A stretch of 38,600 nucleotides of DNA from Frigoriflavimonas asaccharolytica (lineage in GTDB: Bacteria; Bacteroidota; Bacteroidia; Flavobacteriales; Weeksellaceae): assembly GCF_013294015.1 (NCBI RefSeq), contig NZ_JABSNO010000028.1, positions 1 through 38,600 on the forward strand. The letters run 5' to 3'. Both the position numbers and the translations under genes were made by a program. Of the stretch, positions 570-24,271 are shown piece by piece; position 1 is the first letter of the stretch; each line of letters opens with the position of its first letter. The notes beneath the pieces were generated by a model. It worked only from the letters and a program-made list of their open reading frames with translations, ran no database searches and had not been told where the DNA came from.

Positions 570-1393
570 TATTGGGTGTTCTTCATTCTGTTAAAAAAAT
601 AAGAGTCTTTTGGACTGGTTTTCAGATTTTCAACCTTTAGTTTAGGGAATATTAAAGTTGATTCCCCTTTTTTATCATACAAGAAAATGTAGGTAGTTGA
701 TTCCCCAACAAACCGCAGATTATCATCAACTTCATATAATTTGTTTTGATAGTTGAAACTTAGATTGTTTTTTGTTTCACTTAAAAATTTTACTTCGTCA
801 GAACTAACAAACGCTTGAAAACTTGTAAAATAAATAGTTGATATATATATGATAAAAAATGCTAATAATTTAATATTTTCTGAATCTTTACCCTTATTCT
901 TGGTAAAGAGAAATAATCTGATAATTAAATAAATAAATGCTGAAGACGCTAACAATCCCAATGTTAATAATGGAATATTGAAATATTTACAAAGAATGAC
1001 GGGGAAAACCAAAAAAACAGAAAAATATAAAAAGAAGCCAAACATTTTAGATTTTCTGTATCTTTTGAATACTTTATCAGCATGAACTTTTGAAAATAAT
1101 TGATTTCTATTTATCGCCTTAATTTTTAAATTAGATTGAATTTTCTTGTAAATGAATAATTCGAAAAACATGCTAACTAAAAAAGTTCCAATAACCTCAA
1201 ATATAAATATTAAGCCTGTAAGTAGAATTATCTGTTCTACAGAAAAAAACATTAGATCACTTATTGTGACGTATTGAAAAATATTAACTCCAAAGGATGT
1301 GTAATAAACATAATTATAGAAATATGCGATTGAGTAGATTGCAATCAATAAAAAAGTCCAATATTCTTTGAAAGTTTGTAATATTAATTTCAT
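569..1393 (-). CDS. Multi-pass membrane protein of unknown function inside the type III R-M operon
   Basis: I do not recognise a family for this 274-residue protein. Long hydrophobic segments lie near residues 12-32, 48-80, 112-165 (two or three helices) and 175-195, suggesting five or six membrane helices. A polar C-terminal domain of about 75 residues follows. The gene overlaps the res stop by four bases (ATGA) and the mod start by one base, so all three were translated as one unit. A membrane protein wedged between Res and Mod is not part of the classical type III system. It may be an accessory defence component, such as a membrane effector or anchor. That role is inferred from position only. 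Confidence 0.75.
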   Translation of the reverse strand: MKLILQTFKEYWTFLLIAIYSIAYFYNYVYYTSFGVNIFQYVTISDLMFFSVEQIILLTGLIFIFEVIGTFLVSMFFELFIYKKIQSNLKIKAINRNQLFSKVHADKVFKRYRKSKMFGFFLYFSVFLVFPVILCKYFNIPLLTLGLLASSAFIYLIIRLFLFTKNKGKDSENIKLLAFFIIYISTIYFTSFQAFVSSDEVKFLSETKNNLSFNYQNKLYEVDDNLRFVGESTTYIFLYDKKGESTLIFPKLKVENLKTSPKDSYFFNRMKNTQ

Positions 1394-4095
1394 ACGCCTA
1401 TAGTTTTTTCCACTGCTGTTTTAAAATAAGAATACTCATTTACAGGTGCTTTGTATTGAACTTCAACACCAATAGATTCAAAATGTTTCAAAGCACATTT
1501 TATTTTATAAATTTCGCCTTCGGTGATGGCTTTTTTATCATTGATATCATTAGTTCCTTTGGTTTCTATCACGAAATAAAATTCGTTTTCAGTTCCGTTT
1601 TTTAATTCCTTGCGTTTCATTACCAAACCGAAATCTGGTTCGTACGGACCAATTGGTGTTTGTATTTTGTACCAACTTGGCAATTTTATAAAGCAAACCA
1701 CTTCTGAGTCTCCATCAGCACTTTCAGAAAATCTGCGTTCTACATCGCTATCTACCAACATTTTATCAAACACACCTTTCTTTGGTGTTTCTACATATTG
1801 TTTCGCAGCAATATTTTTTTCAAAATCTTTAAAATTAAAAGGAAACTCTTCGCCGTTCATTTTGTATTCTATTTTACGAAGCATTTCATCTAATTCTACA
1901 TCTTTTATAATTTGGGAAACTTCATGTATATATCTTGGCGGATTTTTTACCCATTCTTTATGATTATCAATTTTCTTAGTGATTTGAAAGAGTGTTGTAT
2001 AACTTAATCCTGTATTTTCGCTTATTTCTTCTACCAAATCCAAAGCGGTAAAAGTGGCTTTTTGTTTCACAATTGCAGTTCCGCCGAATGTTTCTTCTCG
2101 TCCACTTTCAGAAAATTGATTTACAAAATGACTGGCTGCTTCTATCACATAATCTGGAATGGTAATTTTATTAATTCTTTCTACTGCACTTTCTATTAAA
2201 TTCTCTTCATCGAACGCAATGCTGTAATCAGTTTTCTTCGCCATTGCTTTCCAAAATTTCTTAAACGCTTTTTGAATATCGTCTGAAGGATTTTTCTTGA
2301 AAAAAACTTTATCTTGTTCTTCGCCTTTGTGCGTATGCGTCATTCCTGCACCAGCATTGGCATCTCCATAAATTGATTTTATTTCTTCTTGATATTGCGT
2401 AACAAATGTTTCATAAGTTTCATTGGGAATTACCGTCAATTGGTTGATTCTGTCGGAATCTTCTGTACCGCTTTCATCATAAATTCTTTCTCCATCTGTA
2501 TTCACACAAATACGTAAACCACGTCCGATTTCCTGTCGCTTTTTTGTTTCGGAATAAGTGGTATTAAGCGTTGCAATATTAAAAACATTCGGATTGTCCC
2601 AACCAACGCCCAATGCGGAATGCGAAAAAATAAATTCTATTTTATTGGCAACTTTATCGCCAAATTGCAGAATATCTTCTTTGTCCCGAAGTATGGCATC
2701 GTAAATTTCTTTTTGTTGTTTTACGCCGCCTTCGTTATCTGCAAACTCCCCATTGGTTTTCTGTGCAAAATAATAACCTTGTGTTTGCTGAATGTGTTCG
2801 TCCGTAGGATTTGCTCCATCGTGATATTCAGGATAAACTTGTTTGTATTTCTCAACAAATAAGTTTTTAATTTTAGGATTTTCTCCTACATAATTGGCTA
2901 CACGATCAATAAAAATAAGGGACAAACATTTAATTCCTTTTTCTTTTAATTTTTGAGATTTCAGAAAATGCCGATGAATAAGCCATTCTATTTGCAAAGC
3001 CCAAATGTTTTCTAAATTTCCGGCAACTTGTTTTTCAAAAATCTCTGTACCATTAGAAAATACAACACTCCATTTTCCGGTTTTTAAACTTTTGAAAATT
3101 CGGTCTATTTTGTAATTATTGTAACTTGGATTGTTGGTTTTATCTCCTAAATTGTCGCCTTCTTTTAACCAAGTAGATAGTTTGAAATCAATTTTACCTG
3201 TAGAATTATTTTGAAACCACGCTTTCAATTTCGCTTGCGGAACTGTTTTGTTTTGAATATCAGCCAATTCAATTTTCAAAGATGCTTCATCGTTTTTTTC
3301 GGTAACGGTAAGTACTTCAATTTTCTTTACCAAACCATTTTTATAACTTTCGTAAGGTGTTAATCTATAAATTAAATTTTTGACGATTTTGTGCGTTGCA
3401 GAATAGCGGATTTTAAATAATGGATTCAATTTAGAAATCTGGCGTACAGAATTTTCTGTGTCCATTCCTTCTTGCGGTTCATCCATGATAATGATTGGCT
3501 GGGTTTTACCGATGGCTTCAATAAAAGGAATATTATTAAATAAATCTTCTCTCTGTGCTTGGTTCAAAATTTTATCTTCAGAATTAAACGAAGCCAAAGT
3601 CATGATCATCACTTGTGGATGTTGCTCTTCTATAAAATTAGAAACTTTTGAAAGTCTTTTACTGTCATATTCAAAGACATTTGGGATGAATCCGTAAATA
3701 TCTTCCAATTGATTATTGAAATTTTTGAATGATGCTAAAACACCTTCACGAATAGCAACAGAAGGAACAAGAATAATAAATTTGGTGAAATTATAATGTT
3801 TGAAAAGTTCATAAATGGTTTTAATGTAAACAAGGGTTTTTCCAGTTCCAGTTTCCATTTCAACAGACAATTCTCTTTTATCAGAAAGATGAATGTTTTC
3901 GGGTAAAAGTCCGTTTTCTTGTGCGACTTCTTTTATATTCTCTTGAAGTTCTTCTAAACTCAAATTAGAAAAATTAGAGCGTATTCCTTCAAAAGTAGAG
4001 TTATCAAAGGTATTCCGAGCAATACCTTCAAATATTTTCACAACAGATTGTATGGCTTGTTCTTGATATTCGAGGTTTTCTAATTTTAATTGCAT
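1390..4095 (-). CDS. res: Type III restriction enzyme Res subunit (SF2 helicase plus endonuclease)
   Basis: The 901-residue protein has the architecture of a type III R-M Res subunit. Walker A is TGTGKT at 82-87 and helicase motif II is DEPQ at 205-208. The SATH segment (motif III) follows, then GVGWDNPNVFNIATLN and the QEIGRGLRI motif VI. A C-terminal PD-(D/E)xK nuclease signature has PDF at about 820-822 and IETKG at 843-847. It translocates on DNA and cuts after Mod recognises unmethylated sites, so it needs Mod for target recognition. Because the only visible mod is truncated, this Res is probably inactive unless a mod elsewhere complements it. Its length is normal and no frameshift is seen. 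Usual gene order is mod then res; here res comes first. Confidence 0.93.
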   Translation of the reverse strand: MQLKLENLEYQEQAIQSVVKIFEGIARNTFDNSTFEGIRSNFSNLSLEELQENIKEVAQENGLLPENIHLSDKRELSVEMETGTGKTLVYIKTIYELFKHYNFTKFIILVPSVAIREGVLASFKNFNNQLEDIYGFIPNVFEYDSKRLSKVSNFIEEQHPQVMIMTLASFNSEDKILNQAQREDLFNNIPFIEAIGKTQPIIIMDEPQEGMDTENSVRQISKLNPLFKIRYSATHKIVKNLIYRLTPYESYKNGLVKKIEVLTVTEKNDEASLKIELADIQNKTVPQAKLKAWFQNNSTGKIDFKLSTWLKEGDNLGDKTNNPSYNNYKIDRIFKSLKTGKWSVVFSNGTEIFEKQVAGNLENIWALQIEWLIHRHFLKSQKLKEKGIKCLSLIFIDRVANYVGENPKIKNLFVEKYKQVYPEYHDGANPTDEHIQQTQGYYFAQKTNGEFADNEGGVKQQKEIYDAILRDKEDILQFGDKVANKIEFIFSHSALGVGWDNPNVFNIATLNTTYSETKKRQEIGRGLRICVNTDGERIYDESGTEDSDRINQLTVIPNETYETFVTQYQEEIKSIYGDANAGAGMTHTHKGEEQDKVFFKKNPSDDIQKAFKKFWKAMAKKTDYSIAFDEENLIESAVERINKITIPDYVIEAASHFVNQFSESGREETFGGTAIVKQKATFTALDLVEEISENTGLSYTTLFQITKKIDNHKEWVKNPPRYIHEVSQIIKDVELDEMLRKIEYKMNGEEFPFNFKDFEKNIAAKQYVETPKKGVFDKMLVDSDVERRFSESADGDSEVVCFIKLPSWYKIQTPIGPYEPDFGLVMKRKELKNGTENEFYFVIETKGTNDINDKKAITEGEIYKIKCALKHFESIGVEVQYKAPVNEYSYFKTAVEKTIGV

Positions 4096-4331: not shown

Positions 4332-5126
4332 TTAAATCTTGTTTATAATATTTTCAGTAATAGTTTTATAAGCCAAATCATTATCATATTCCACTCCCGG
4401 TCTTAAAATAGTGAAAATATCATTTCGAAATTCATCGTCCTGCATTTTTTCATCCATATTGAGAAGAAACATTTTTCCTGTGGGATTTACTCCGTCTGAA
4501 AAATTGATATATTCTTTATAACATTTAGTTAAATTTTCAGTGTTGATTTCGAGTTTTGATAATGCTAGATCTAAATCAAATAAATCTCTACCTTTTCTTC
4601 TTTGGTATAATGCTCTTAATTTCGTCCCGAGTAATTCTTCAATTTGATAAGTGTTTATCATACATTCTCCAGAAAACCAACCATTTTTCACTTCAAACGG
4701 AATTTTTTGTAATCCTAAAACGGTGAAGTGTTCTCTGCAATTGATTTCTATTTTTAATCGCATCTGTATAACTGGTGCAATTTCAGTTTCAAAGCGATAA
4801 GTGGCTGTGTTGTTGTGAATACTGCTTTCAATTTTTCTTTTTGTTCCTAAAAATGGAGCTAATTTTTCTCTAATCTTCACCAAAATTGGCTTTATCGGTC
4901 CTGGTTTTATTTGCACCAAATCTATATCTTCTGAATATCTTGCTTGTGGCTTCAAAAATAATTTATGCAATGCCGTTCCACCTCGAAATGCTAAATTTTC
5001 ATTTAAAAATGGATCAGAGAATAATTCAACAATTGTTCTTTCTATAATTAAATCTTGCTCCACTTGTCCATTTTCTGGCCAAGGAGCAAATTCTCTCCAT
5101 TCTTCTATATATCTTCTCGGTATCAT
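4332..5126 (-). CDS. abiEii: AbiEii/AbiGii-family nucleotidyltransferase toxin
   Basis: This 264-residue protein belongs to the nucleotidyltransferase AbiEii toxin family (DUF1814). The polymerase-beta-like signature is clear: FRGGTALHK at about 47-55 followed by RYSEDIDLV at 63-71, giving the GG(S/T) motif and the DxD metal ligands D67 and D69. The downstream helix carries the family motif KLRALYQRRKGRDLFDL. AbiE toxins transfer nucleotides to cellular RNAs and cause reversible growth arrest during phage infection. The start overlaps the antitoxin stop by four bases (ATGA), which fits the coupled antitoxin-then-toxin order of type IV AbiE systems. Confidence 0.9.
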   Translation of the reverse strand: MIPRRYIEEWREFAPWPENGQVEQDLIIERTIVELFSDPFLNENLAFRGGTALHKLFLKPQARYSEDIDLVQIKPGPIKPILVKIREKLAPFLGTKRKIESSIHNNTATYRFETEIAPVIQMRLKIEINCREHFTVLGLQKIPFEVKNGWFSGECMINTYQIEELLGTKLRALYQRRKGRDLFDLDLALSKLEINTENLTKCYKEYINFSDGVNPTGKMFLLNMDEKMQDDEFRNDIFTILRPGVEYDNDLAYKTITENIINKI

Positions 5127-5932
5127 AAATCGTTTTCAATTTTAATATTATTTATAATCCGCCATTTTGTATCTACCGTACCTTCTTTATTTTTTCCTGG
5201 CATTAATGGAATGATATTTAATTTTTTATCAGAAATTGTTTCAAAAATTACTTTGCTCAATTTTTCATTCCCTAATTCGTACTCTAACAAATAACCCAAT
5301 CTTTGTACTGCTGCTAATTGAGAATAATTTTTAACCGTTTTCACTAATTGACTTGGTTTTATAACTTCTACTAATTCTTTTAAGATTGTGACCACTCTGT
5401 TCATTCCTAATTTCTCCACATAATACAACAAATCCAAAGCAGTAAGTTCTGGAGAAGAAACATTTACATAACCTGCATCTGTTTTTATTTGCTTAACATC
5501 TTCGCTATTCCATTCATTTTTAACAAAAAAATTTATTTTTAATTTCTGGTTTTTAATGTCTCGCAATGCTGGTTTTTCCGTTATCACAAAAGTTTCCATA
5601 GATTGTTGGTGAGATGCGCCATGAATTGCCGCCGCAGATATTAATCCCAAATAGTATTTTTTATTTAGTGATAGCATCATATCATCAAGGTACATCGTGG
5701 TAGGAATTACACCATAATTTGAGTATTCTGCCGGAAGAATTGTATAAAAACCTTTTCGAATTTGTACTATTTTCTTTTTAGCTTTTAAACGATATAAATT
5801 TTGAAGAATTGCTTTATCAGTAACATCAAATTTTTCTTTTAATTCTTCCAATGTGAAAGCATATCTACCTTTAGATCGCACGTTATCGATATATTCCTCT
5901 AAATAATTATATGTTTGAACTCTGTTTTTCAC
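5123..5932 (-). CDS. abiEi: AbiEi-family antitoxin / transcriptional autorepressor
   Basis: This 269-residue partner of AbiEii has an N-terminal winged-helix domain (about residues 20-65, with LEELKEKFDVTDKAI and the wing RKGFYTI). A C-terminal AbiEi-type domain includes SPELTALDLLYY, near residues 160-171. AbiEi proteins neutralise the toxin and repress their own promoter by binding inverted repeats. A perfect palindrome lies 21-37 bp upstream of this start. The ATG at 5930-5932 is chosen because it gives a full N-terminal HTH. Coupling to abiEii by an ATGA overlap supports a single transcript. Confidence 0.88.
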   Translation of the reverse strand: MKNRVQTYNYLEEYIDNVRSKGRYAFTLEELKEKFDVTDKAILQNLYRLKAKKKIVQIRKGFYTILPAEYSNYGVIPTTMYLDDMMLSLNKKYYLGLISAAAIHGASHQQSMETFVITEKPALRDIKNQKLKINFFVKNEWNSEDVKQIKTDAGYVNVSSPELTALDLLYYVEKLGMNRVVTILKELVEVIKPSQLVKTVKNYSQLAAVQRLGYLLEYELGNEKLSKVIFETISDKKLNIIPLMPGKNKEGTVDTKWRIINNIKIENDL

Positions 5933-10169: not shown

Positions 10170-13100
10170 GTGTTAGACCGTATTATAAAATTCAGTATTC
10201 AGAACAAACTTATCATCGGTATTTTTACTTTGGTGCTTATCATTTGGGGTGCATGGAGTGCTACAAAATTACCAATAGATGCTGTTCCAGACATTACCAA
10301 TAATCAAGTTCAAATTATCACCATATGCCCAACACTTGCAGGGCAGGAAGTAGAGCAATTAGTTACTTTTCCTATTGAGCAGAGCATTTCCAACATTCCA
10401 GATATAGAAGAAACACGTAGTATTTCCCGCTTTGGTTTGTCCGTAATTACAGTAGTTTTTGATGAAAGTGTAGATATTTATTTCGCACGCCAACTTGTAA
10501 ATGAAAAACTAAAAGAAGCCGAGAGAAATATTCCCCAAGATGTTGGCATACCAGAACTCGCACCTGTTAGTACAGGTTTAGGTGAAGTTTATCAATATAT
10601 CATTCACCCAAAAAAAGGCAGTGAAGATAAATACAACGCAAAAGATCTGCGAAGCATGCAGGACTGGATCATTGCGCGACAACTAAATGGAACTAAAGGT
10701 ATTGCGGAAGTTAATAGTTTTGGAGGCGAACTAAAACAATATGAAGTTTCTATTGACCCTTATAAATTAAGATCTTTTGGTATAAGTGTTACAGATATAT
10801 TCAATGCACTGGAAAAAAATAATGAAAATACAGGTGGTGCATATATCGATAAAAAACCCAACGCATATTTCATTCGTGGAATTGGGTTGGTGACATCTCT
10901 GGAAGACGTAGAAAACATTAGTGTGAAAAATTCTACTGGGAGTGTGCCAATTTTCATTAAAGATGTTGCTAAAGTTCAATTCGGAAGTGCGGTTCGTTAT
11001 GGCGCAATGACTTACAACGGAACTGTAGATGCTGTAGGCGGTGTAGTGATGATGCTGAAAGGCGAGAATAGTAATGAAACCGTAAAACGCATTAAGGAAA
11101 AAATTCCTGTCATTCAAAAATCTTTGCCGGATGATATCGTGATTGAAGCCTATCTGGATCGTACAGAATTGGTAGATCGTGCCATGAGTACAGTTGAAAA
11201 AAACCTTATTGAGGGTGCATTGATTGTAATTTTTGTTTTAGTATTATTTCTCGGAAACCTTCGTGCAGGATTAATAGTAGCATCTGCAATTCCTTTGTCT
11301 CTGCTTTTTGCATTAGGAATGATGAATGTCTTCGGCGTTAGTGCTAACCTAATGAGTTTGGGTGCTATAGATTTTGGATTGATTGTAGATGGTGCTGTAA
11401 TTATTGTAGAAGCCACGGTTCATCATTTAGGTTTACGGAAATCTCGGCAAAAATTATCTCAACTTGAAATGGATAATGAAGTCTTTTTTTCCGCATCAAA
11501 AATTCGAAATTCTGCAGCATTTGGAGAAGTGATTATATTGATAGTCTATATTCCAATTTTAACATTGGTGGGTGTAGAGGGAAAAATGTTTACACCAATG
11601 GCAAAAACCGTTGGGTTTGCAATACTGGGAGCATTGATTCTCTCCATGACTTATATTCCTATGATGTGTGCTTTGTTTTTATCTAAAAAAGTTTCACATA
11701 AAAAGAATTTTTCTGATAAAATGATGGCTTATTTACAAAAAGTTTACCAGCCACTATTGCGTAAAGCCATACAAATCAGATATTGGTTAGTAGGTGGAAC
11801 AATTATTTTATTTGTTTTCAGTTTAGGAATATTTAAAAATTTGGGTGGTGAATTTATTCCGCAACTACAGGAAGGTGATTTTGCTTTTCACTGCATATTA
11901 CCACAAGGAAGTTCATTAAGCCAAAGTATAGAAACTTCCTCGCAGGCAGCAAGAATTATAAAAGGATTTGATGAAGTAAAAATGGTTGTTGGAAAAACTG
12001 GTGCGGCAGAAGTACCAACAGATCCTATGCCACCTGAAGCAACTGATATGATCATAGTTCTAAAACCTAAAAAAGACTGGAAAACAGATAAAAGTTACGA
12101 AGAATTATCTGCTGAAATGCTGGAAGAATTGGAAATCATTCCAGGAATATTCTTTGAGGCTAATCAGCCTATTCAAATGCGATTTAATGAATTAATGACT
12201 GGTATCCGGCAGGATGTTGCAGTTAAAATTTTTGGCGAAAACTTGGACAGTCTTTCTATCTACGGAGATAAAGTAAGTAGTATCGTACAAACTGTAGAAG
12301 GAACTTCAGAGCCACAAGTAGAGCAGATCAGCGGTTTGCCACAGATCAATGTAGTTTATAATAGGACAAAACTTGCCAATTATGGTCTAAACGTGGCAGA
12401 TGTAAATGATGTTTTGAGCACCGCATTTGCTGGAAAAGTAGCCGGACAGGTATTTGAAAATGAAAGACGTTTTGATCTTGTGGTTCGATTAGATAAAGAA
12501 TTTAGAACTGATATTGCTGACGTGAGCAATCTAATAATTTCCACATCGAACGGAAGTCAAATACCTTTGTCTCAAGTTGCAGAAATCTCCTACAAAGAAG
12601 GTCCTGCACAGATAAGCAGAGAAGCAGGAAAACGACGGATCTTTGTTGGTTTTAATGTAATAGATAGAGATGTACAAAGTGTTGTAAAAGAAATTCAGCA
12701 AAAATTAGATAAAGAAATAAAACTGCCAACAGGCTATTATTTCACATACGGTGGACAATTTGAGAATCTGGAAAAAGCCAGTAAACGCCTACTGATAGCA
12801 GTTCCAATCTCACTTTTTTTGATTTTTGCATTATTATATTTTACTTTTAAATCTATAAAACAAGCGCTTCTAATTTTCACTGCCATTCCAATGAGCGCCA
12901 TTGGGGGAATTTTTGCTTTGGTTTTGCGAGATATGCCCTTTAGTATTAGTGCTGGTATTGGTTTTATTGCCTTATTTGGTGTAGCGGTTTTAAATGGAAT
13001 TGTGCTAATAAGCACTTTTAATCAACTTGAAAAAGAGGGGGAGAACAATGTTTTTAAACGCATTTTTAATGGAACTTTATTAAGATTACGACCTGTTTTA

Positions 13101-14531
13101 ATGACTGCTACGGTTGCAAGCGTGGGTTTTTTACCTATGGCATTATCTCAAGGTGCTGGTGCAGAAGTTCAAAAACCTTTGGCTACAGTGGTTATTGGTG
13201 GATTAATAACAGCAACTTTTTTAACGCTATTTGTATTGCCCTTGTTGTACCTGATATTTAATTCAAAAATTAAGTTCAAGAAAATGAAAACTAAATATAT
13301 AACAACTCTTTTGATTTTATTTTTTACAGTTTTGGGAATTTCCACACAAGCACAGACTACTAAAGTAATCGACATAAATGAGGCTATAGAAATTGCGTTA
13401 GAAAACAATGAAAATATAAAAGCGAAAAATTTAGAAATACAGGCTGTGCAAAGTTTAAAAAGAACGGCGTATGATATACCGAAACTGGATGTCTCTGCAC
13501 AATTAGGTCAGTACAACGGACCAAGATTTGATCAGTCATTTCAGATCTCACAAACAATTCCTTTCCCAACTTTATTTAAGGCAAAGAAAAATCTGAATAA
13601 TGCTGAAATAAAAAGAAAAACTTATAACCGTGAAATTTCTGAAATGGAAATCAAAAATGAGGTTCGGACTTATTTTTATCAGATACAGTATTTACAACAC
13701 AATCAAAAAAAACTCTATTCTTTAGATAGTTTGTACAATGATTTTATTCGTGTCGTAAAGTTGCGTTATAAAGTGGGAGATATTAAAAAAATTGAGATCA
13801 ATTTAGCCGAAGCCAAGAAAAATAGCATCTATCTCTTATATCAACAAAATGATATTTATTTAAAAAACGCTTATCAAAATTTGCGAACGGTAATGAATAC
13901 TTCAGAATCCTTTGTTGTAAAAGATCCGTTACATTATCAACCATTATTGTTAAGTAATTTAATAGATCAAAATTCCTTCACCGATAATCCCTCGATCAAA
14001 GCACTTTATCAAGATGCATTGATTGCAGAGGAAAACAAGAAAATAGAAAAAGCCAAAAATTTACCAGATCTCACTTTGGGATATACTAATCAATCATTGA
14101 TAGGTAATTTCGATGTGAATGGACAAGAAGTTTTCTATGATTCGGGAAAACGCTTTCATTCTGTTATGGTAGGAGTTTCTATTCCCATATTCTCAACAAG
14201 CAGATCAAAGATTGAATCGTTGGATTACACAAAAAAAGCCGCAGAAGCCAACGCAGAATATCAAAAGAAAAAAATGGCAACTCAATATGAAAATGCGCTA
14301 CAACAATATGAACTGGAAGTGCAGCAACATCAATATAATGAAAATGTGGCATTGCCAAGTGCGAAAGAAATTATTATGGCTTCACAATTAGGTTATCGTT
14401 TGGGCGAAATAACGTCTGAAGAATACCTTTTTGGTTTGCAGACTGCCGCAGATATTGAGTTAAATTATCTTAAAAGCATTCAAGAAATTAATCAGTCTGT
14501 AATATTAATTTATTCTATAATCAATCAATAA
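10170..14531 (+). CDS. czcA: CzcA-type heavy-metal RND pump fused to a TolC-like outer-membrane factor
   Basis: At 1453 residues this is two proteins in one. Residues 1-1038 are an RND inner-membrane transporter of the heavy-metal-efflux family. The proton-relay motif in the fourth helix is D401-FGLIV-D407-GAVIIV-E414, the CzcA-type arrangement for Zn/Co/Cd (HME1-like). Residues 1039-1453 are an outer-membrane efflux protein with its own signal-like start (MKTKYITTLLILFFTVLGIS) and two repeated coiled-coil halves typical of TolC/CzcC. The fusion is frequent in Bacteroidota. The start codon is GTG, followed by LDRIIKFSIQNK, the usual N-terminus of CzcA. The adaptor gene follows after six bases. 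Unless the chain is cleaved or the gene reinitiates at the internal ATG (13284), the two halves span both membranes as one polypeptide. Confidence 0.92.
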   Translation: MLDRIIKFSIQNKLIIGIFTLVLIIWGAWSATKLPIDAVPDITNNQVQIITICPTLAGQEVEQLVTFPIEQSISNIPDIEETRSISRFGLSVITVVFDESVDIYFARQLVNEKLKEAERNIPQDVGIPELAPVSTGLGEVYQYIIHPKKGSEDKYNAKDLRSMQDWIIARQLNGTKGIAEVNSFGGELKQYEVSIDPYKLRSFGISVTDIFNALEKNNENTGGAYIDKKPNAYFIRGIGLVTSLEDVENISVKNSTGSVPIFIKDVAKVQFGSAVRYGAMTYNGTVDAVGGVVMMLKGENSNETVKRIKEKIPVIQKSLPDDIVIEAYLDRTELVDRAMSTVEKNLIEGALIVIFVLVLFLGNLRAGLIVASAIPLSLLFALGMMNVFGVSANLMSLGAIDFGLIVDGAVIIVEATVHHLGLRKSRQKLSQLEMDNEVFFSASKIRNSAAFGEVIILIVYIPILTLVGVEGKMFTPMAKTVGFAILGALILSMTYIPMMCALFLSKKVSHKKNFSDKMMAYLQKVYQPLLRKAIQIRYWLVGGTIILFVFSLGIFKNLGGEFIPQLQEGDFAFHCILPQGSSLSQSIETSSQAARIIKGFDEVKMVVGKTGAAEVPTDPMPPEATDMIIVLKPKKDWKTDKSYEELSAEMLEELEIIPGIFFEANQPIQMRFNELMTGIRQDVAVKIFGENLDSLSIYGDKVSSIVQTVEGTSEPQVEQISGLPQINVVYNRTKLANYGLNVADVNDVLSTAFAGKVAGQVFENERRFDLVVRLDKEFRTDIADVSNLIISTSNGSQIPLSQVAEISYKEGPAQISREAGKRRIFVGFNVIDRDVQSVVKEIQQKLDKEIKLPTGYYFTYGGQFENLEKASKRLLIAVPISLFLIFALLYFTFKSIKQALLIFTAIPMSAIGGIFALVLRDMPFSISAGIGFIALFGVAVLNGIVLISTFNQLEKEGENNVFKRIFNGTLLRLRPVLMTATVASVGFLPMALSQGAGAEVQKPLATVVIGGLITATFLTLFVLPLLYLIFNSKIKFKKMKTKYITTLLILFFTVLGISTQAQTTKVIDINEAIEIALENNENIKAKNLEIQAVQSLKRTAYDIPKLDVSAQLGQYNGPRFDQSFQISQTIPFPTLFKAKKNLNNAEIKRKTYNREISEMEIKNEVRTYFYQIQYLQHNQKKLYSLDSLYNDFIRVVKLRYKVGDIKKIEINLAEAKKNSIYLLYQQNDIYLKNAYQNLRTVMNTSESFVVKDPLHYQPLLLSNLIDQNSFTDNPSIKALYQDALIAEENKKIEKAKNLPDLTLGYTNQSLIGNFDVNGQEVFYDSGKRFHSVMVGVSIPIFSTSRSKIESLDYTKKAAEANAEYQKKKMATQYENALQQYELEVQQHQYNENVALPSAKEIIMASQLGYRLGEITSEEYLFGLQTAADIELNYLKSIQEINQSVILIYSIINQ

Positions 14532-16109: not shown

Positions 16110-18632
16110 TTAGTACATAAACGTCAAACCTGCTCCAAAACCATAATCACTGTCATAGTTTGTGGATATTGCTACGTATTTTTGTACTATATATTTTAGA
16201 CCAATGTTATATTCCATATCAGAATTTATCATAAATCCACCGCGAATTCTGGGCGAAATTGGGATGTTTTCACGTCCTAATTCCAATATCACTTTTCCAT
16301 TTTGATCTACATTTGCGTCTGCCATTATTAACATTGGCAATAGATAACGAACTCCGGCAATTGCTACATTTTGATTTTTAGGCATAACCTCTTGACCAAA
16401 CAAAGTTTTCTTCATATCGTCCATTTTTGCACTTCTGAAACCTACGTAAGGCATTGCCCATTGGTATTTTCCTAAAAATCTACCTACTTTTACTGTTCCT
16501 TCATATCGGCTGAAATCATAATTAGAACGAAATTCATTTATATTCATCCATCTTGATCCAAACATTGTCATATTTTCAAACTGAAAACTATTTGATGACA
16601 CATCCAGCATTGCTGTAGTATTCACCATTCTGTTCTTACTTAAAAATTGTTTGTAAGAGGCTTCTTTATCTGGTAACTGTGGATTTGGTGCTGAATTTTC
16701 GTAAGAAAAAACACGACCCATTCCCGTCATCATATGGTACAAAATATGGCAATGAAAAAACCAATCTCCATCTTGGTTTGCAGCAAATTCTATGGTTACA
16801 GTTTCCATTGGCGCAACATCTATAACATTTTTCAAAGGTGCATATTCTCCTTTGGCGTTTACAATTCTAAAATCATGACCGTGAAGGTGCATTGGGTGAC
16901 GCATCATTGAATTATTATACATGGTAATACGAACAACCTGACCTTTTTTAATTAAAATTTTATCGCTTTCTGCTACAGTTTTATTATCTAAAGTCCAGAG
17001 ATAATTACGCATATTTCCTTCTAATGTAAAATTTAATTGTTTCACATTATCGGTAGGTAAAATAGTTTTAAAAGGCGATTTCAACATATTATAATTAAGA
17101 CGCTTGATGGTTTTTTCCTCTGAAGAACCCATGTCCATCTTGCTGTGATCCATCTCCATTTTTCCATTGTCCATTTTCATGTCAGACTTCATTTCCATTT
17201 TGCTGTGATCCATTTGCATTTTGCCATCTTTCATTTTCATGTCAGATTTCATATCCATTTTACTGTGATCCATTTGCATTTTGCCATCTTTCATTTTCAT
17301 GTCAGATTTCATATCCATTTTGCTGTGATCCATCTGCATTTTCTCATCGTCCATTTTCATGTCAGATTTATCCCCCATCATTTCCATCATGTGATTCATC
17401 GTTTTCATACGCTGGCTTTCAGATAATTCTGGGTACATTACTTCATTCATATCCATTACCTGATTTCCCATTTTCATCGTCATGGGTTTCATATCGCCAC
17501 TCATTTTCATCATGCCGTTCATCATTTTCATCCCTTCGAAAAGATTTAATCTTGGCAAGTTTGGTGCTTGCACTTTTTCACCATCTCCTAAATAAAGCGA
17601 AGCAAAACCCTGCCGATCTTCTGAAGTGGCTCTAAATTCGAAACTTTTATTTGCAGGAATAGTTACTTCAATATCATAAGATTCAGAAACACCTACAATA
17701 AGACGATCCACTTCCACTGGTTCTACCTCATTACCATCACTTCCAATTACCGTTATTTTTCCACCGCCATAATTCAACCAAAAATAAGAAGACGAGGCAC
17801 CATTCGCGACACGAAGGCGAACTTTATCTCCCGCTTTCAAGTTTTTGTAATCTGATGAAATAGCGCCGTTAATGAGGAAATTATTGTAATAAACATCACT
17901 TACATCCATGGCTTCCATTCGTTTCCATTCATTGAGTAATTTTGTTTTGAAATAACCTTTACCAATGGCTTCGCTATAACTTTGTACTGTACCTTTTTTG
18001 ATGGCGTACCAATCAGTTTGATCCATGTGAAGTCGGCGCATGATTTGTTTAGGATTACTCGCTGCCCAATCTCCTAAAAGGACAGGAATATCTGCCGCAA
18101 ATATTTTTTCTGGCTGACTTTCTCTTTTCTTGAACACCAAAATTCCATTCATCCCAATCTGTTCTTGCGTACCTTCGTGAGAATGATACCAATACGTACC
18201 GTTTTGCGAAATTTTAAATTTATAAAGATGCGTTTCCCCAGGTTTTATTTCTTTTGTAGTGAGATAAGGAACACCATCCATCTCATTAGGTAAAATAACA
18301 CCATGCCAATGCAATCCTGTGTTTTCCTTTTTTAATTGATTGTGCAGGTAAATTTCTGCAGTGTCTCCTTCTGTAAAATACAAGGTTGGTGCTTGTAATT
18401 TGCCATTTGTGAAAATTGCTCGACTTGTATGACCATTAAAAGTTACGACGGTATCTTTTACATATAAATCATAACGCACCGTTTTGCCACCCATGGAAAT
18501 TTTTCCACTTTCATCATTTTTTGTTTCCGATTTTTTTTCCATATGCATGGAATGATCTTGAGCAAAACCCTGAACCGAGACCATCACAAAAAGAATGAAA
18601 TAAAACTTTAAATTATGTACTCTATTTCTCAT
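16110..18632 (-). CDS. Copper-resistance multicopper oxidase with Met-rich insert and C-terminal CopB-like barrel
   Basis: This 840-residue exported protein has a signal peptide at 1-24 (cut near GFA-Q). The multicopper oxidase domain carries HWH at 108-110 and WYHSH at 148-152. Its C-terminal copper ligands are HPMHLHGH (about 577-584) and HCHILYHMMTGM (about 625-637), so type 1, 2 and 3 sites are complete. It probably oxidises periplasmic Cu(I), like PcoA/CopA oxidases. Residues about 411-508 are Met/Lys/Asp/His-rich tandem repeats of the MDHSKMDMKSDMK type, which bind copper. Residues about 665-840 look like amphipathic beta strands ending FMY, similar to the C-terminal part of the outer-membrane protein CopB/PcoB. 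The gene overlaps the DUF305 gene by 11 bases. Confidence 0.85.
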   Translation of the reverse strand: MRNRVHNLKFYFILFVMVSVQGFAQDHSMHMEKKSETKNDESGKISMGGKTVRYDLYVKDTVVTFNGHTSRAIFTNGKLQAPTLYFTEGDTAEIYLHNQLKKENTGLHWHGVILPNEMDGVPYLTTKEIKPGETHLYKFKISQNGTYWYHSHEGTQEQIGMNGILVFKKRESQPEKIFAADIPVLLGDWAASNPKQIMRRLHMDQTDWYAIKKGTVQSYSEAIGKGYFKTKLLNEWKRMEAMDVSDVYYNNFLINGAISSDYKNLKAGDKVRLRVANGASSSYFWLNYGGGKITVIGSDGNEVEPVEVDRLIVGVSESYDIEVTIPANKSFEFRATSEDRQGFASLYLGDGEKVQAPNLPRLNLFEGMKMMNGMMKMSGDMKPMTMKMGNQVMDMNEVMYPELSESQRMKTMNHMMEMMGDKSDMKMDDEKMQMDHSKMDMKSDMKMKDGKMQMDHSKMDMKSDMKMKDGKMQMDHSKMEMKSDMKMDNGKMEMDHSKMDMGSSEEKTIKRLNYNMLKSPFKTILPTDNVKQLNFTLEGNMRNYLWTLDNKTVAESDKILIKKGQVVRITMYNNSMMRHPMHLHGHDFRIVNAKGEYAPLKNVIDVAPMETVTIEFAANQDGDWFFHCHILYHMMTGMGRVFSYENSAPNPQLPDKEASYKQFLSKNRMVNTTAMLDVSSNSFQFENMTMFGSRWMNINEFRSNYDFSRYEGTVKVGRFLGKYQWAMPYVGFRSAKMDDMKKTLFGQEVMPKNQNVAIAGVRYLLPMLIMADANVDQNGKVILELGRENIPISPRIRGGFMINSDMEYNIGLKYIVQKYVAISTNYDSDYGFGAGLTFMY
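17131..17370. repeat. About four tandem copies of a 60-bp in-frame repeat
   Basis: Period-60 copies at 17161-17220, 17221-17280 and 17281-17340, with partial copies on both sides, encode the 20-residue Met/His/Asp/Lys repeat of the multicopper oxidase. Copies 2 and 3 differ by only a couple of bases, so they arose or were homogenised recently and could vary in number between strains. Confidence 0.9.
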
Positions 18633-19104
18633 TTTGTAATCTTTTTATCATTGTTTTCATTTCTTCAATTTCTTTTTTTTGAGCAGTGATAATACTTTCT
18701 GCTAATTTTTTTACTTCCGGATCTTTTATATCAGCACGTTCACTTGTTAAGATAGCAATTGAATGGTGTGGAATCATTGCTTTCATCCAAAGCACATCGC
18801 CAACTATAGGACTTTGCGTACGAACTAAACCTAACGGAGCAAAAAATAGCCCTATACTTCCAACGATGATCCCCAGATTTTTTTGCTTATTCTTATACAT
18901 TTTGCGCATGAAGAAAAACATTATTAAAGCCATTGCCGAAATTCCAAGACAAACCATATAGAATCTCGTAAGACTGAAATAAACGTGATCCAGTTCATAT
19001 GTATTGAGATACATTGTAATGTACATTGCTACAAAAGAGGCTGCGAGCATCCACATAAAGGTTGAATACGAATTGTCTTTTTTGTGTTCCATTGAATTTT
19101 CCAT
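18622..19104 (-). CDS. DUF305-domain membrane protein
   Basis: This 160-residue protein has three hydrophobic segments (about 14-32, 44-65, 76-96) and then a DUF305 helical domain with the signature MIPHHSIAIL at about 109-118 followed by ADIKDPEVKKLAESII. DUF305 is a ferritin-like four-helix family common in copper-resistance clusters. The His pair and the methionines may bind metal, but its biochemical role is not established. It is ten bases downstream of the CopA ATPase gene and overlaps the multicopper oxidase start, so all three are one transcript. Confidence 0.85.
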   Translation of the reverse strand: MENSMEHKKDNSYSTFMWMLAASFVAMYITMYLNTYELDHVYFSLTRFYMVCLGISAMALIMFFFMRKMYKNKQKNLGIIVGSIGLFFAPLGLVRTQSPIVGDVLWMKAMIPHHSIAILTSERADIKDPEVKKLAESIITAQKKEIEEMKTMIKRLQNEK

Positions 19105-19114
19105 AAGTTTAATT

Positions 19115-21607
19115 TTAAATATTTATATTTTTTAATCTTAAAGCATTCCCAATTACTGATACCGAACTGAAACTCATTGCCAAAGCCGCTATCATGGGTG
19201 ATAAAAGTATTCCAAAAACAGGAAATAATGCACCTGCAGCAATTGGAATTCCTAAAATATTGTAACCTAATGCAAAAAATAAGTTTTGCTTAATGTTTTT
19301 CATCACGGCATCGCTTAAATGGCGTGCTTTTACTATTCCATTTAAATCACCTTTTACTAAAGTGATCATTGCGCTTTCTATGGCGACATCTGTTCCAGTT
19401 CCCATGGCAATTCCTACATCACTTTTTGCTAAAGCAGGTGCATCATTAATTCCGTCTCCTGCCATTGCTACAATTTTTCCATTTTTTTGAAGTTTTTCTA
19501 CTTCCTGTAATTTATTTTCGGGCAACATTCCGGCTTTAAAATCCGTAAGATTTAATTCTTTTGCAACTGCTTGTGCGGTATCGTGATTATCACCTGTAAG
19601 CATTATCACTTGAATTCCTTTTTCCTGAAGTTCTTTGATGGCTTTTGCACTGGTCGGTTTTATTTTGTCAGATATCACTACATATCCTGCAAGTTTTGCA
19701 TCAACAGATAAATAGGAAACTGTTTTTCCTTGTTTTTGAAAGCCCTGCACTTCGGCTTCTGCCTCTTTAGAAATTTCTGCCTTTGCATAGTCCATCATTT
19801 TGGCATTCCCCAGATCTATTTTTTTTCCGTTAATTTTTCCTTCTACACCTTTTCCAGTAACTGCGCTAAAATTATCAGCGTTTAAAATTTCTGTATTTTG
19901 CTCTTTCCCATATTTTACGGTTGCTTCTGCAAGTGGGTGTTCACTCAATTTATTTAATGAAGCGATGAATTGCAAAACCTCTTTTTCTGAAAATTCTTGT
20001 CCAAAAGTGCCGATCTTTTCCACCGTTGGTTTTCCTTCTGTAATAGTTCCAGTTTTATCAATAATTAGGGTATCTACTTTGTCCATTCTCTCGAGTGCTT
20101 CGGCATTTTTTATCAAGACACCATTTTGTGCGCCTTTACCGACTCCCACCATTATAGACATTGGCGTAGCCAAACCTAAAGCACAAGGACAAGCAATAAT
20201 TAAAACTGCAATGGCATTTACAAAAGCAAATACATAAGCAGGTTCTGGACCAAAAATTGCCCAAACTACGAAAGTAATTAATGATATAAAAACAACAATT
20301 GGCACAAAATATCCAGAGACAGTATCTGCTAATTTCTGAATGGGTGCTCTGCTTCTGCTTGCATTATTCACCATTTCAATGATTTGAGAAAGTAAAGTAT
20401 CTGCACCAATTTTTTCGGCTTTCATTAAAAAAGACTGGTTTCCATTAATGGTTCCACTGCTTACTTTATCATCAACACTTTTATTTACAGGAATTGGTTC
20501 TCCTGTAATCATGGATTCATCTACGGTGGTTTGTCCTTCTTTTATAGAACCATCTACAGGAATTTTATCGCCTGGTTTTACCCGAAGAATATCACCTAAA
20601 ACAATTTGATTGATCGTCACTTCTTCTTCAACACCATCTTTAACTCTAATGGCACGATTTGGTGCTAATTTTAATAATTCTTTAACCGCAGAATTGGTTT
20701 GACTGTGGGCTCTGGCTTCTAAAACCTGCCCTAATAAAACCAAGGTTAAGATTACAGTTGCTGCTTCAAAATAAACATGGACTGCACCAGTATGCGTTTT
20801 AAATTGCGCAGGGAAAAAATCTGGAAACAGCATCCCAAAAATACTGAAAAGCCATGCTGCACCTGCGCCAATACCAATAAGCGTAAACATATTAAGATTC
20901 CATGTTTTAATACTTTTGTATGCTCGCTCAAAAAACATCCATGTTGCATAAAACACGACTGGAATAGAAAGTATCAACTGTACCCAGTTCCAGTTCTTTT
21001 GTTCCATCAATTTATAGAGCGGATTGTTTGGAATCATTTCACTCATTGCCATCAAAAAGATAGGGACGGTAAAAATTGTAGCAATCCATAGTTTGCTCAA
21101 TAATTTTTTGTAGGTTTTTTCTTCCGCAGAAATATCAACTTTCATTGGCACGAGATCCATTCCGCAGATCGGGCAACTTCCGGCTTCATCTCTGATGATT
21201 TCTGGATGCATTGGGCAAGTCCATTGTTCAAAATTGGACGTGGTTAATTTTTGTTCTTCGACAAGATCCATACCGCAAACAGGACAATCTCCCGCTTTGT
21301 CATAGGTTTTTTCGCCTTCACAATGCATAGGGCAGTAGAAAGTTCCGTTGCCACTTTTCGGTTTATCTTTTTTAGTTTTTGGCTCTGGCTTTTCGCCTAA
21401 ATTGTGAATACTATATTTTCCACCATCATTTTTCATGGCTTCCTGAAGTTTTTCCAATGGAATATGTTTTTCCATTTCAATACTTGCTTCGGCTTTTTCT
21501 AAATTTACAGATGCCTGGGAAACACCTTCAATTTTGGAAAGAGTTTCTTCTACGTGCTTTCTGCAACCGTCGCAGGTCATTCCATGTATTTGGTAGGTAT
21601 GTTTCAT
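19115..21607 (-). CDS. copA: Cu+-exporting P1B-1 type ATPase
   Basis: This 830-residue inner-membrane Cu(I) pump has an N-terminal HMA domain with GMTCDGC at 9-15. Two heavy-metal-binding (YHS-like) units follow: YCPMH...CPVCGMDL at about 91-115 and CPMHPEI...CPICGMDL at 131-152. The membrane site is CPC at about 473-475, the phosphorylated DKTGT aspartate is about residue 517, and GDGINDAP lies near 715. The last two helices carry the P1B-1 signature: NI after ALGY (helix 7) and the MSFSSVSV segment (helix 8). Doubled CPMH/CxxCGM units after an HMA are typical of Bacteroidota CopA. It is followed directly by the DUF305 and oxidase genes. Confidence 0.95.
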
Positions 21608-21934: not shown

Positions 21935-22495
21935 TTATTGAATTGCTCTTTGAACTTTACCACAGGTAAGCATTTTGCTCCCATAAAATGGATTTTTCAC
22001 TTGATTACTTGTACTTAACCAACTGCTACCTTTATCATACATTGGGCAAAACTGCTCGTACAATTTTACTTTGGTTCCAGTAATGGCAACCAGATCTGCA
22101 ATATCTTTGCTTAATGTTTTAAAATGCTCACTCTGATGGGCTATTTCACTTTTAGAAATATGTTCAGCGTTTTCAGTTGCATCTTCTATGATATCCGCCA
22201 GTTCCTTCTTATTTGCCGCGGAATATTTTGAAGCATTAAATGCCTTTAAAGAAACAGCAAGTTTAGAACCTGCGGTTGCTGCTTTTTTACTATCATCTGC
22301 AACCAAAGCATCTTTCAAATTAAAATAATCGCTCAAGATAACTTCTGCTTTAGCATCGCTTTTCATAGACATTTTTTTTCCATTGTCCATTTTCATATTC
22401 ATTTTGCTATGATCCATTTTACTCATTTCCTGCGCACTGGCAAAAGAAATTGCGAATAATAATACTGCTACTATACTTACTTTAATATTTTTCAT
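21935..22495 (-). CDS. Exported DUF3347 protein with Met/His-rich N-terminus
   Basis: This 186-residue protein has a signal peptide (cut near SFASA-Q). A Met/His/Lys-rich stretch at about 23-47 ([15 protein letters not shown]) matches the repeat units of the multicopper oxidase. The DUF3347 helical domain contains [20 protein letters not shown] and TCG near the C-terminus. The conserved Cys-Pro-Met and final Cys-Gly are likely copper ligands, as in periplasmic copper chaperones associated with Cus-type systems. It is the last gene before a terminator and a paralogue of the genes at 22968 and 23801. Confidence 0.85.
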
Positions 22496-22513
22496 TTTAT
22501 TTTTTTAAAATTT

Positions 22514-22966
22514 TTATAAACTATCTTTTGTTTTTGTCATCCATTGTACAATTTCATCCTTTTCCGCTTTGGAAAATATAGCATCTCTATGAATGATGGT
22601 GTAGGAACTCATCGGCATTTCACCATCCTTGATCTGATTGACTATTGCTTTCAATTTGCTTTTTTTACGGCGCACCGAAAGAGAATCCCATTCACTAAAA
22701 TTCAATTCTTTTTTACCATCTATAATGTGGTTTTGCAAAAACATTGCAACCGGCTGAACTTTACTGTACCAAGGATAATTGGTATTATTACTGTGACAAT
22801 CATAGCAGGAAGTTTGCAACTTACTTTTAATATTTACCGGAACATTATTTACCGACATAAAATCGGCTTTTGAAGTGGTCTGGCTTTTATTAATTTGCTT
22901 TGGCAGAAATTGAATTAATACAAATGCGATCAATAAAACCGTTGCTATGATTCTGAAAATTTTCAT
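22514..22966 (-). CDS. Haem-binding domain protein (cytochrome c-like CxxCH)
   Basis: This 150-residue protein has an N-terminal membrane anchor or signal (residues 5-21). The haem-binding domain signature is CYDCHSNNTNYPWYSKVQPV at about 54-73, where CYDCH is a c-type haem attachment motif. MPMSSYTIIHRDA follows further on, with a possible axial Met. Family members are periplasmic or membrane-anchored monohaem proteins. It is wedged between two DUF3347 genes, one base from the upstream gene, so it is co-transcribed. It could pass electrons during copper oxidation or reduction; that is inference. Confidence 0.85.
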   Translation of the reverse strand: MKIFRIIATVLLIAFVLIQFLPKQINKSQTTSKADFMSVNNVPVNIKSKLQTSCYDCHSNNTNYPWYSKVQPVAMFLQNHIIDGKKELNFSEWDSLSVRRKKSKLKAIVNQIKDGEMPMSSYTIIHRDAIFSKAEKDEIVQWMTKTKDSL

Positions 22967-22967
22967 A

Positions 22968-23540
22968 CTAGTTCAATTCCTTTTCCATTTTTCCGCAGTC
23001 AAGCATTTCATCACCATAATAAGGATTTCTCACTTCTTTGCTTGAACTCAACCAATTACTTCCGCCATCATACATTGGACAAGACATTTCGTAAACTTTT
23101 GCATCTGCTCCAGTAATAGCGATCATATCTGTAACATCTTTGGTTAGTGCTTTAAAATGTTCTCTTTGATGATCTATTTCACTCATAGAAATATGTTCTG
23201 CATGTTCTTTGGCATCAACAATTATGTCCTTCAGCGTTTTTTGCTGTTGCTCTGTGTAAGTGCTCATATCAAAATTGTTCAATGCAGTTCCCATAGCCAA
23301 TCCTGCTTTTGCGGCATCTTCTTTATTGGTTGCAACTAATGCGTCTTTGATCGTCATATAATCTGCTACAACCTGTTTCGCACTTACAGATTGTGCACCA
23401 GTTGTTGCCATTTCATCCGACTTCATAGAAGAATGATCCACTGCTGTTTCTTTGGTAGACTTATTTTCCTTGCAAGAAAATGCTGTAAGACTCAATAAAA
23501 CTGCTGTTGCAATTGTTACTGTAATTTTTAAATTTCTCAT
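22968..23540 (-). CDS. DUF3347 lipoprotein
   Basis: This 190-residue protein has a lipoprotein signal ending LTAFSC (cysteine near residue 23), then a short DHSSMKSDEM stretch. A DUF3347 domain follows with SCPMYDGGSNWLSSS and NPYYGDEMLDCG. The conserved CPM and CG elements match its two paralogues. It starts 260 bp after the third paralogue, and its stop is one base from the haem-binding gene start. It probably binds copper at the outer or inner membrane surface. Confidence 0.85.
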   Translation of the reverse strand: MRNLKITVTIATAVLLSLTAFSCKENKSTKETAVDHSSMKSDEMATTGAQSVSAKQVVADYMTIKDALVATNKEDAAKAGLAMGTALNNFDMSTYTEQQQKTLKDIIVDAKEHAEHISMSEIDHQREHFKALTKDVTDMIAITGADAKVYEMSCPMYDGGSNWLSSSKEVRNPYYGDEMLDCGKMEKELN

Positions 23541-23800
23541 TTTTTCTTGATTAATGATTAGTATTATTTTAATTAAATTCGAATGTTTACACTTACTATT
23601 TCTTTTAATTAAAATCGAAACTTTTGAAAATATTAATGTTTAATAATCAGATTTTGAACTATTAAATTTTGCCTAACTATTAATATTTAAATAATCCAAG
23701 TTTTGAAAATGGATGATAATTAAAGTTGATTGCAATTTTCTATGAATAAACTTCAATTTTAATAAGAGAAGCGTTCAAACGAATTAAAAATTGAAATGAA

Positions 23801-24271
23801 TTATTTTAGTTCAGATTTCATGCTGCCGCAAGTAAGCATCGAACTTCCATAAAAAGGATTTTTCACTTCCTTTTGTGCGCTTAACCATGATGCATCTTGC
23901 ATAGGACAATAGAGAATAAATACGGAAGAATCTGCTAATTTGAAATTTTTTGCAACCTCAATCATATTACTTGATAATTTTGCAAAAGATTCGCGTTGGG
24001 TTTCTATACTTCTGCTTTCTGCGATAGTAGAAGCATCTTTCCGAAGAAGGTCTAAATTGCCTTCAGACAAAACTTTGTAATCTACCATGGAAGCAGATTT
24101 TATAAATTCATTTGCTGCCTTTGAGGCTTCATCTGAATTATCCATTACCAAAGCATCTTTTATAACGATATAGTTTTGGTAAAGTTTATAAATGGAAGCA
24201 TCAGACTTTTGTGCTGACAAATTTAAGATTGAAAATATTGAGAATATTGCTGTGAAAATTAATTTTTTCAT
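23801..24271 (-). CDS. Short exported DUF3347 protein
   Basis: This 156-residue protein has a signal peptide (cut near NLSA-Q) and goes straight into the DUF3347 domain without a Met-rich linker. The family C-terminus YCPMQDASWLSAQ, NPFYGSSML and TCG is intact. It is the most divergent of the three paralogues. A 14-bp palindrome, TCCAAA-AG-TTTGGA, lies at 24307-24320 in its leader and may be a regulatory site. The 23541-23800 gap after it holds no supported gene. Confidence 0.83.
   Translation of the reverse strand: MKKLIFTAIFSIFSILNLSAQKSDASIYKLYQNYIVIKDALVMDNSDEASKAANEFIKSASMVDYKVLSEGNLDLLRKDASTIAESRSIETQRESFAKLSSNMIEVAKNFKLADSSVFILYCPMQDASWLSAQKEVKNPFYGSSMLTCGSMKSELK

Follow-up and report, generated by a model that had tools for sequence, protein, structure and literature searches.

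In most described systems the multicopper oxidase (MCO) PcoA and the outer-membrane barrel PcoB, elsewhere called CopA and CopB, are two separate proteins. PcoB is a 12-stranded barrel that its authors note resembles OmpLA, with acidic pairs in the pore, E130-E223 and D97-E207 (PMC9210255). The direction in which it passes copper is disputed: the same text argues for Cu(II) import, on the ground that export would lack an energy source, whereas PMC12509749 reports efflux in Caulobacter. In that bacterium the PcoA and PcoB genes overlap by four bases and the stability of PcoA depends on the N-terminal region of PcoB, which the authors suggest serves to dock PcoA and may help to hand over Cu(II) (PMC12509749). 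Fused PcoA-PcoB proteins have been recorded in five Legionella species, in one sentence on gammaproteobacteria in PMC3548706, and were taken there as a sign that PcoA and PcoB interact. Here we analyse a window of 38,600 nucleotides from Frigoriflavimonas asaccharolytica (positions 1 to 38,600 of contig NZ_JABSNO010000028.1; the window is this whole stretch, and coordinates refer to it), in which a single gene (16110..18632, minus strand, as are all of its parts) appears to join both proteins in one chain. We put at roughly 80% the probability that this is a natural fusion of the PcoA-PcoB type, in which the oxidase would sit at the periplasmic mouth of an outer-membrane barrel that passes Cu(II).

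The gene is one intact frame of 840 residues, from an ATG start through its stop codon, encoding an N-terminal signal, a complete MCO and a tail of ~200 residues, and this length and order are kept in its relatives. The oxidase (residues 51-645, 16698..18482) is delimited by Pfam, TIGR01480, invariant ligands and the structural model, and its three cupredoxin domains match Cu-oxidase_3 (58-171), Cu-oxidase (206-336) and Cu-oxidase_2 (533-645). Its copper ligands, H108, H110, H150, H152, H579, H582, H584, H627, C628, H629, H633 and M638, are invariant over 29 aligned full-length members, the window protein among them, which bears out the claim of an earlier sequence-only reading that the oxidase is complete; together with its three cupredoxin domains, the four conserved ligand motifs for copper give it the features that characterise PcoA/CopA. 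The best NCBIfam match is TIGR01480 (copper_res_A) at 357.2 bits, and a second fused protein in the same genome reaches 374.9 bits, both under the cut-off of 478.95. Judged by sequence, the fused oxidases are a sister family to the TIGR01480 PcoA/CopA proteins and are not filed here as members. The second copy lies on another contig (L046 8344-10701, G000:C2:100843-103200) and has 785 residues, 55 fewer than the window protein, to which it is 75.8% identical. Between the second and third cupredoxin domains the window protein carries a loop rich in Met, His and Asp (residues 405-506, 17115..17420, from composition and model), in which Tandem Repeats Finder reports 4.0 copies of a 60-bp tandem repeat coding for 20-residue units (17130..17369). 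Residues 405-512 hold 30 Met and 5 His, and residues 423-506 of the loop have a predicted local distance difference test score (pLDDT) under 50 in the model.

The tail extends 195 residues beyond the last oxidase domain and 207 beyond the HCHxxxH motif. Among 32 aligned members the distance after HCHxxxH is 207-222 residues in every case, and the last residue is always Y or F; over 135 intact tails the final residue is Y in 121, F in 10, W in 2, L in 1 and N in 1, so that 133 of the 135 end in an aromatic residue. A sequencing or assembly artefact as the source of the extra length is ruled out by the same length in dozens of genomes. From an alignment of 44 tails AlphaFold2 predicts 12 strands and a short helix (pLDDT 83.9), and the same 12 strands appear in a full-length model (overall pLDDT 74.5); in the models a linker (residues 646-669, helix 656-667, 16626..16697) leads from the oxidase to the putative CopB-like barrel (residues 670-840, 16113..16625), which ends in Tyr. 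Averaged over the 12 modelled strands, the two faces differ in hydropathy by 2.70 against a permutation mean of 1.30, a value reached in none of 5000 permutations, although the alternation is less clear strand by strand (4 of the 12 have p above 0.18). Alternating strands with an aromatic end, as described in the sequence-only reading, are thus upheld. That reading had also named a structure prediction as a check, and the predicted fold is a barrel; its suspicion that the barrel is too short to be a full pore unless it oligomerises is not supported, since the model closes 12 strands within ~170 residues into a complete barrel and PcoB is likewise 12-stranded. A type IX secretion C-terminal domain, which we considered as the identity of the tail, was rejected because there is no such Pfam match and the predicted fold is a 12-strand barrel.

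The relationship of the tail to CopB comes from the family. A profile of 49 non-redundant tails was compared by hhalign with CopB profiles, the E-values referring to the single pair and not to a database, and aligned with 12 CopBs of the same phylum at 86.8% probability (E 4.3e-6, 132 columns) and with 17 CopBs, Klebsiella PcoB included, at 95.9% (E 5.1e-9, 121 columns). VIA-align, which gave a second assessment of Foldseek's own match list for the tail model, places PcoB (7pge) at the top with Z 14.1 and a root-mean-square deviation of 3.5 over 157 residues, jointly with OMPLA at the same Z. The profile comparison indicates that the tail family is homologous to CopB/PcoB over most of the barrel; by sequence and model, we take the tail to be a complete, not a truncated, barrel of a divergent CopB type. 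The resemblance to CopB/PcoB proposed in the sequence-only reading is thereby supported, by a family profile comparison and a predicted structure; its other proviso, that the segment should show similarity to CopB, fails in a plain Pfam search of the protein and holds when the family profiles are compared.

How far the barrel resembles PcoB as a pore can be judged from its polar residues. By hhalign, PcoB E130 falls on E700 of the window protein and PcoB E207 on E788, and an acid occupies the first column in 32 of the 49 tails and the second in 39 (E in all 39). Two further columns are E711, with E or D in 49/49, and D772, with D or E in 38/49 and Q in 10/49; E700, E711, D772 and E788 all lie on the more polar strand face. 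The position of PcoB E223, counted without gaps from R795, is Asn (N803) in the window protein, and the residue eight past R795 is Asn in 37/49 tails, while several distant tails have, by eye, Glu eight past that Arg or its counterpart, as in PcoB R215-E223. PcoB D97 cannot be placed firmly on the window protein; in 37/49 tails residue 677 or 679, on the polar side of strand 1, is acidic and may by its position be the counterpart. One could therefore suppose that the barrel is a mere outer-membrane anchor, plugged or closed, through which no copper passes, and that the benefit of the fusion lies in position and a 1:1 amount of the two parts. In PcoB itself the periplasmic side is partly blocked (PMC9210255), and the Asn at the E223 position means that its pore residues are only partly kept. 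We think this unlikely: a pure anchor would presumably have no need of the acids that are kept on the polar face at E711 (49/49), D772 (38/49) and E788 (39/49). The His/Met-rich N-terminal region of PcoB is also missing from the fusion, 38 of the 49 tails having no His among their first 33 residues, and the Met/His-rich loop of the fusion lies in the oxidase, not at the N-terminus of the barrel. Loss of this region, with the oxidase in its place, is as expected if its job is docking.

A different concern is that the tail could be an unrelated small outer-membrane barrel of Bacteroidota that was added to an MCO and came to look like CopB through convergence on 12 strands. Several results, together with the E223 and D97 positions above, weigh against our preferred reading of a PcoA-PcoB-type fusion; of those that follow, the OMP_b-brl matches, the structural tie with OMPLA and the 11.4% of the close tails speak for an unrelated barrel. 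The C-terminal 176 residues alone have zero Pfam or NCBIfam matches, a PDB sequence search with the tail of the window protein returned nothing, and the CopB model PF05275 finds no match by plain Pfam search in the window protein or in its genome. A PDB search with the tail profile gave one weak row only, by its name not a barrel protein. At E <= 1, a Pfam scan of the 49 tails finds CopB in four (best E 2.2e-4), outnumbered by the generic OMP_b-brl in ten (best E 2.1e-4). Foldseek with the tail model finds no PDB match at E <= 0.001, and PcoB is absent among the 50 rows listed; OMPLA stands level with PcoB as a structural match, and 12-stranded barrels look alike. Split by distance, the distant tails alone give 88.5% with the 12-CopB set and 94.6% with the 17-CopB set, and the close tails alone 11.4% and 67.3%; the 11.4% is barely over the controls, so the link to CopB needs either the distant members or the wider CopB set. 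As controls, the tails score 5-9% over 22-39 columns with other Bacteroidota barrels, PF13568 and PF13505, and 0.2-9.9% is obtained with reversed profiles; the 17-CopB profile scores 2-5% with the PF13568 and PF13505 barrels, and reversed CopB at most 0.5% with the tails. The two barrel sets, of 16 sequences each (from 30 loci each) with 10 in common, amount to nearly one control. Even so, we consider an unrelated barrel quite improbable, because the family profile alignment is specific to CopB (121-132 columns against 22-39 for other barrels), because CopB elsewhere adjoins the sister MCO, and because no sampled genome has both the tail (62) and CopB (27 of 395), a pattern that kinship may explain in part. 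That the tail is instead a soluble beta domain, such as a secretion or cell-surface domain, would be compatible with the barrel being a model prediction and is very improbable indeed given the 12-strand meander with alternating faces (0/5000 permutations), the aromatic end in 133/135 and the outer-membrane barrels that make up its best structural matches.

Returning to the PcoA-PcoB-type fusion, the distribution of the tail shows how consistently it travels with its oxidase. At E <= 0.001 it is found in 33 of 99 genomes of relatives, the window's genome included; of the 40 places listed, 37 fall within open frames of 742-983 residues and the other three within frames of 626, 356 and 178. The survey of fusion frequency in Bacteroidota that the sequence-only reading had proposed finds it in 62 of 395 genomes of a phylum sample, again counting the window's genome; the sample is taken as Bacteroidota from the relatives that carry names. 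In the loci retrieved at a length of at least 4.5 kb (L034-L245), the tail always shares a frame with the oxidase HCHxxxH except in L225 (7395-9370) and L238 (7869-8815), both broken fusion genes whose oxidase part lies in the adjacent frame; no intact tail without its oxidase occurs among the loci read. Conversely, an MCO of the window's kind (threshold E 1e-60) is present in 34 of 198 genomes, all 34 of them in the tail list. The best 80 loci of a contig scan, whose further matches may include other phyla, are by their titles all from Bacteroidota (Kaistella, Chryseobacterium, Halpernia, Elizabethkingia, Flavobacterium, Fluviicola, Pedobacter, Chitinophaga and others), and 22 plasmid records that match the window tail all belong to Bacteroidota genera, 20 of them labelled 'multicopper oxidase domain-containing protein'. 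Beyond the phylum, the tail occurs in a 675-residue MCO on a plasmid of Ilyobacter polytropus (Fusobacteriota; L306 5944-7971, hidden Markov model E 8e-23). In 67 of 133 fused proteins, weighted to Chryseobacterium (12 of 47 when redundancy is removed), an extra heavy-metal-binding motif of the CPMH..CPxCGM kind precedes the oxidase, making a three-part copper protein often of ~925 residues (L071, L077, L083 and other Chryseobacterium and Pedobacter loci); the window protein has no such motif in front of its oxidase.

Fused and separate forms can be set side by side within the same phylum. The Pfam CopB model matches 27 of the 395 genomes, none of them among the 62 with the tail, and both kinds are found inside two genera (g120, g133). 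Where CopB is separate, copB directly adjoins an MCO gene in 13 loci read (12 of the 27 CopB genomes) and overlaps it by one to four bases in L227, L228, L229 and L231. A 714-residue frame in G433, a candidate for a canonical MCO-CopB fusion, was rejected because copB has its own frame there. The premise of the sequence-only reading that PcoA and PcoB are normally separate accordingly stands for most described systems and fails for the Legionella fusions and for this sample, in which the fused form is the commoner (62 vs 27 of 395 genomes). In a quick IQ-TREE analysis of the oxidase part with 69 rows, 48 fused, 16 separate and 5 other MCOs each fall behind one branch (SH-aLRT 97, 100 and 91), and the fused oxidases sit next to the CopA proteins that have a separate CopB. 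The tree omits L235 and the truncated L239 and L240, and some of its branches are long. A single origin of the fusion fits the sample, in which fused rows were picked by their tail and tail-less close relatives may be unsampled.

The fused and separate proteins also differ in their apparent route of export. A twin arginine is present in 13/13 separate CopAs (12 by pattern, L236 by eye), and a usable twin-arginine signal in 0/133 fused frames. These 133 frames are 128 distinct sequences; L097 begins at a contig edge, and the truncated L239 and L240 were excluded. Two scans were made, of the 75 residues before the oxidase and of everything before HWHG, for RR only and not KR. The RRx-hydrophobic pattern does occur in 46 of the 133, but 45 of these matches belong to a strand of the oxidase (RRAIA or RRALA); the remaining match, in L224, lies before the oxidase in a frame seemingly over-extended upstream and is by eye not signal-like. 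An absent twin-arginine translocation (Tat) system was rejected as the cause: the window's genome encodes TatC, as do 57 of the 59 genomes searched, and the two that lack it are less than 85% complete. The window protein has a hydrophobic N-terminus (residues 1-25, 18558..18632) without a twin arginine, which by eye and by family comparison is a probable general secretory (Sec) signal. On this sequence evidence the fusion went with a change of export from Tat to Sec, and as the fused proteins probably go back to one event, this would be one change and not 133. An outer-membrane barrel crosses the inner membrane unfolded via Sec, so the passenger oxidase would have to take up its copper outside.

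The start of the fusion gene is overlapped by 11 bases by an upstream gene (18622..19104, minus strand) with a DUF305/CopM-type region after hydrophobic stretches, which scores 45.9 bits for CopM, under the cut-off of 90. Further upstream on the same strand lies a copper-type P1B ATPase with an HMA and two HMBD stretches (19115..21607). Of 42 non-redundant fused loci, 30 have kin of the window's copper ATPase, CusA, CusB or DUF305 genes no more than ~8 kb away, a count given with no background rate, and 36 do when DUF3347 is added. Upstream of the ATPase, 21935-24271 (minus strand) encodes three DUF3347 proteins and a haem-binding-domain protein; DUF3347 relatives stand near the fused MCO in 29 of the 42 loci, and the family looks linked to copper handling. 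On the plus strand, 10170-14531 encodes a CusA/CzcA-family RND pump fused to a TolC-type channel (1453 residues; ACR_tran 5-1030, OEP to 1451), followed by a CusB-type adaptor, a second fusion in the window of a metal exporter to an outer-membrane part. The window also holds a defence-type cluster, in which an AbiEi/AbiEii type IV toxin-antitoxin pair (4332-5932, minus strand) adjoins a type III restriction-type helicase/endonuclease (1390-4095).

How might a one-chain oxidase and barrel work? A tail predicted to be a CopB-related barrel, on the end of a PcoA-like oxidase, should hold that enzyme to the outer membrane. The chain would be exported unfolded by Sec and the 12-stranded barrel inserted in the outer membrane, as the barrel fold and C-terminal aromatic residue suggest, and the oxidase would fold and acquire its copper in the periplasm, the compartment that both ends of a PcoB-type barrel should face on the precedent of PcoB itself (PMC9210255). 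Periplasmic Cu(I) may come from the neighbouring P1B ATPase; the Met/His-rich loop would gather it, and its oxidation to Cu(II) would take place where the acidic barrel opens to the periplasm, so that copper is probably detoxified at the entrance of the pore. The barrel could then let Cu(II) cross the outer membrane, with outward release favoured over uptake. We speculate further, tentatively and with considerable doubt, that this would be a one-chain, oxidation-driven exit for copper: Cu(I) is oxidised with oxygen at the mouth of the protein's own pore and Cu(II) released straight outward, with oxidation and not a pump as the driving force, which an exporter in the outer membrane otherwise lacks, the oxidase having been freed from Tat for it, since a barrel inserted by the beta-barrel assembly machinery must pass Sec unfolded.

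Compared with the PcoA + PcoB (CopA + CopB) pair, the fusion has the same constituents, a PcoA-kind MCO and a CopB-like 12-stranded barrel. It differs in being one chain with no Tat signal on the oxidase, in lacking the His/Met-rich N-terminal region of PcoB and in a barrel too divergent for the Pfam CopB model. The Legionella fusions hold the same two parts in one protein; the present family, which we can set beside them by description only, spans Bacteroidota and has the divergent barrel. The CusA-CusC fusion of the same window likewise joins a metal-export part to an outer-membrane partner, but it is an energised pump, unlike the MCO-barrel fusion, and its channel has another fold than the CopB-like barrel. 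No report of a PcoA-PcoB-type fusion in Bacteroidota was found in searches of an open-access library, which leaves most subscription papers outside, so that one may be in print.

The Bacteroidota fusion is a divergent, widespread variant of a principle already known from Legionella; its value lies less in novelty than in offering a natural test of a disputed mechanism and exposing a gap in annotation. In many Bacteroidota where Pfam recognises no CopB, a CopB-like barrel goes under the label of the oxidase, and surveys that count copB genes will miss such barrels. The switch from Tat to Sec that went with the fusion illustrates cleanly how the route of export may be set by the partner to which a protein is joined. 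Finally, the natural joining of both parts fixes their ratio and should put the oxidase on the periplasmic side, so that the docking idea becomes testable in one protein.

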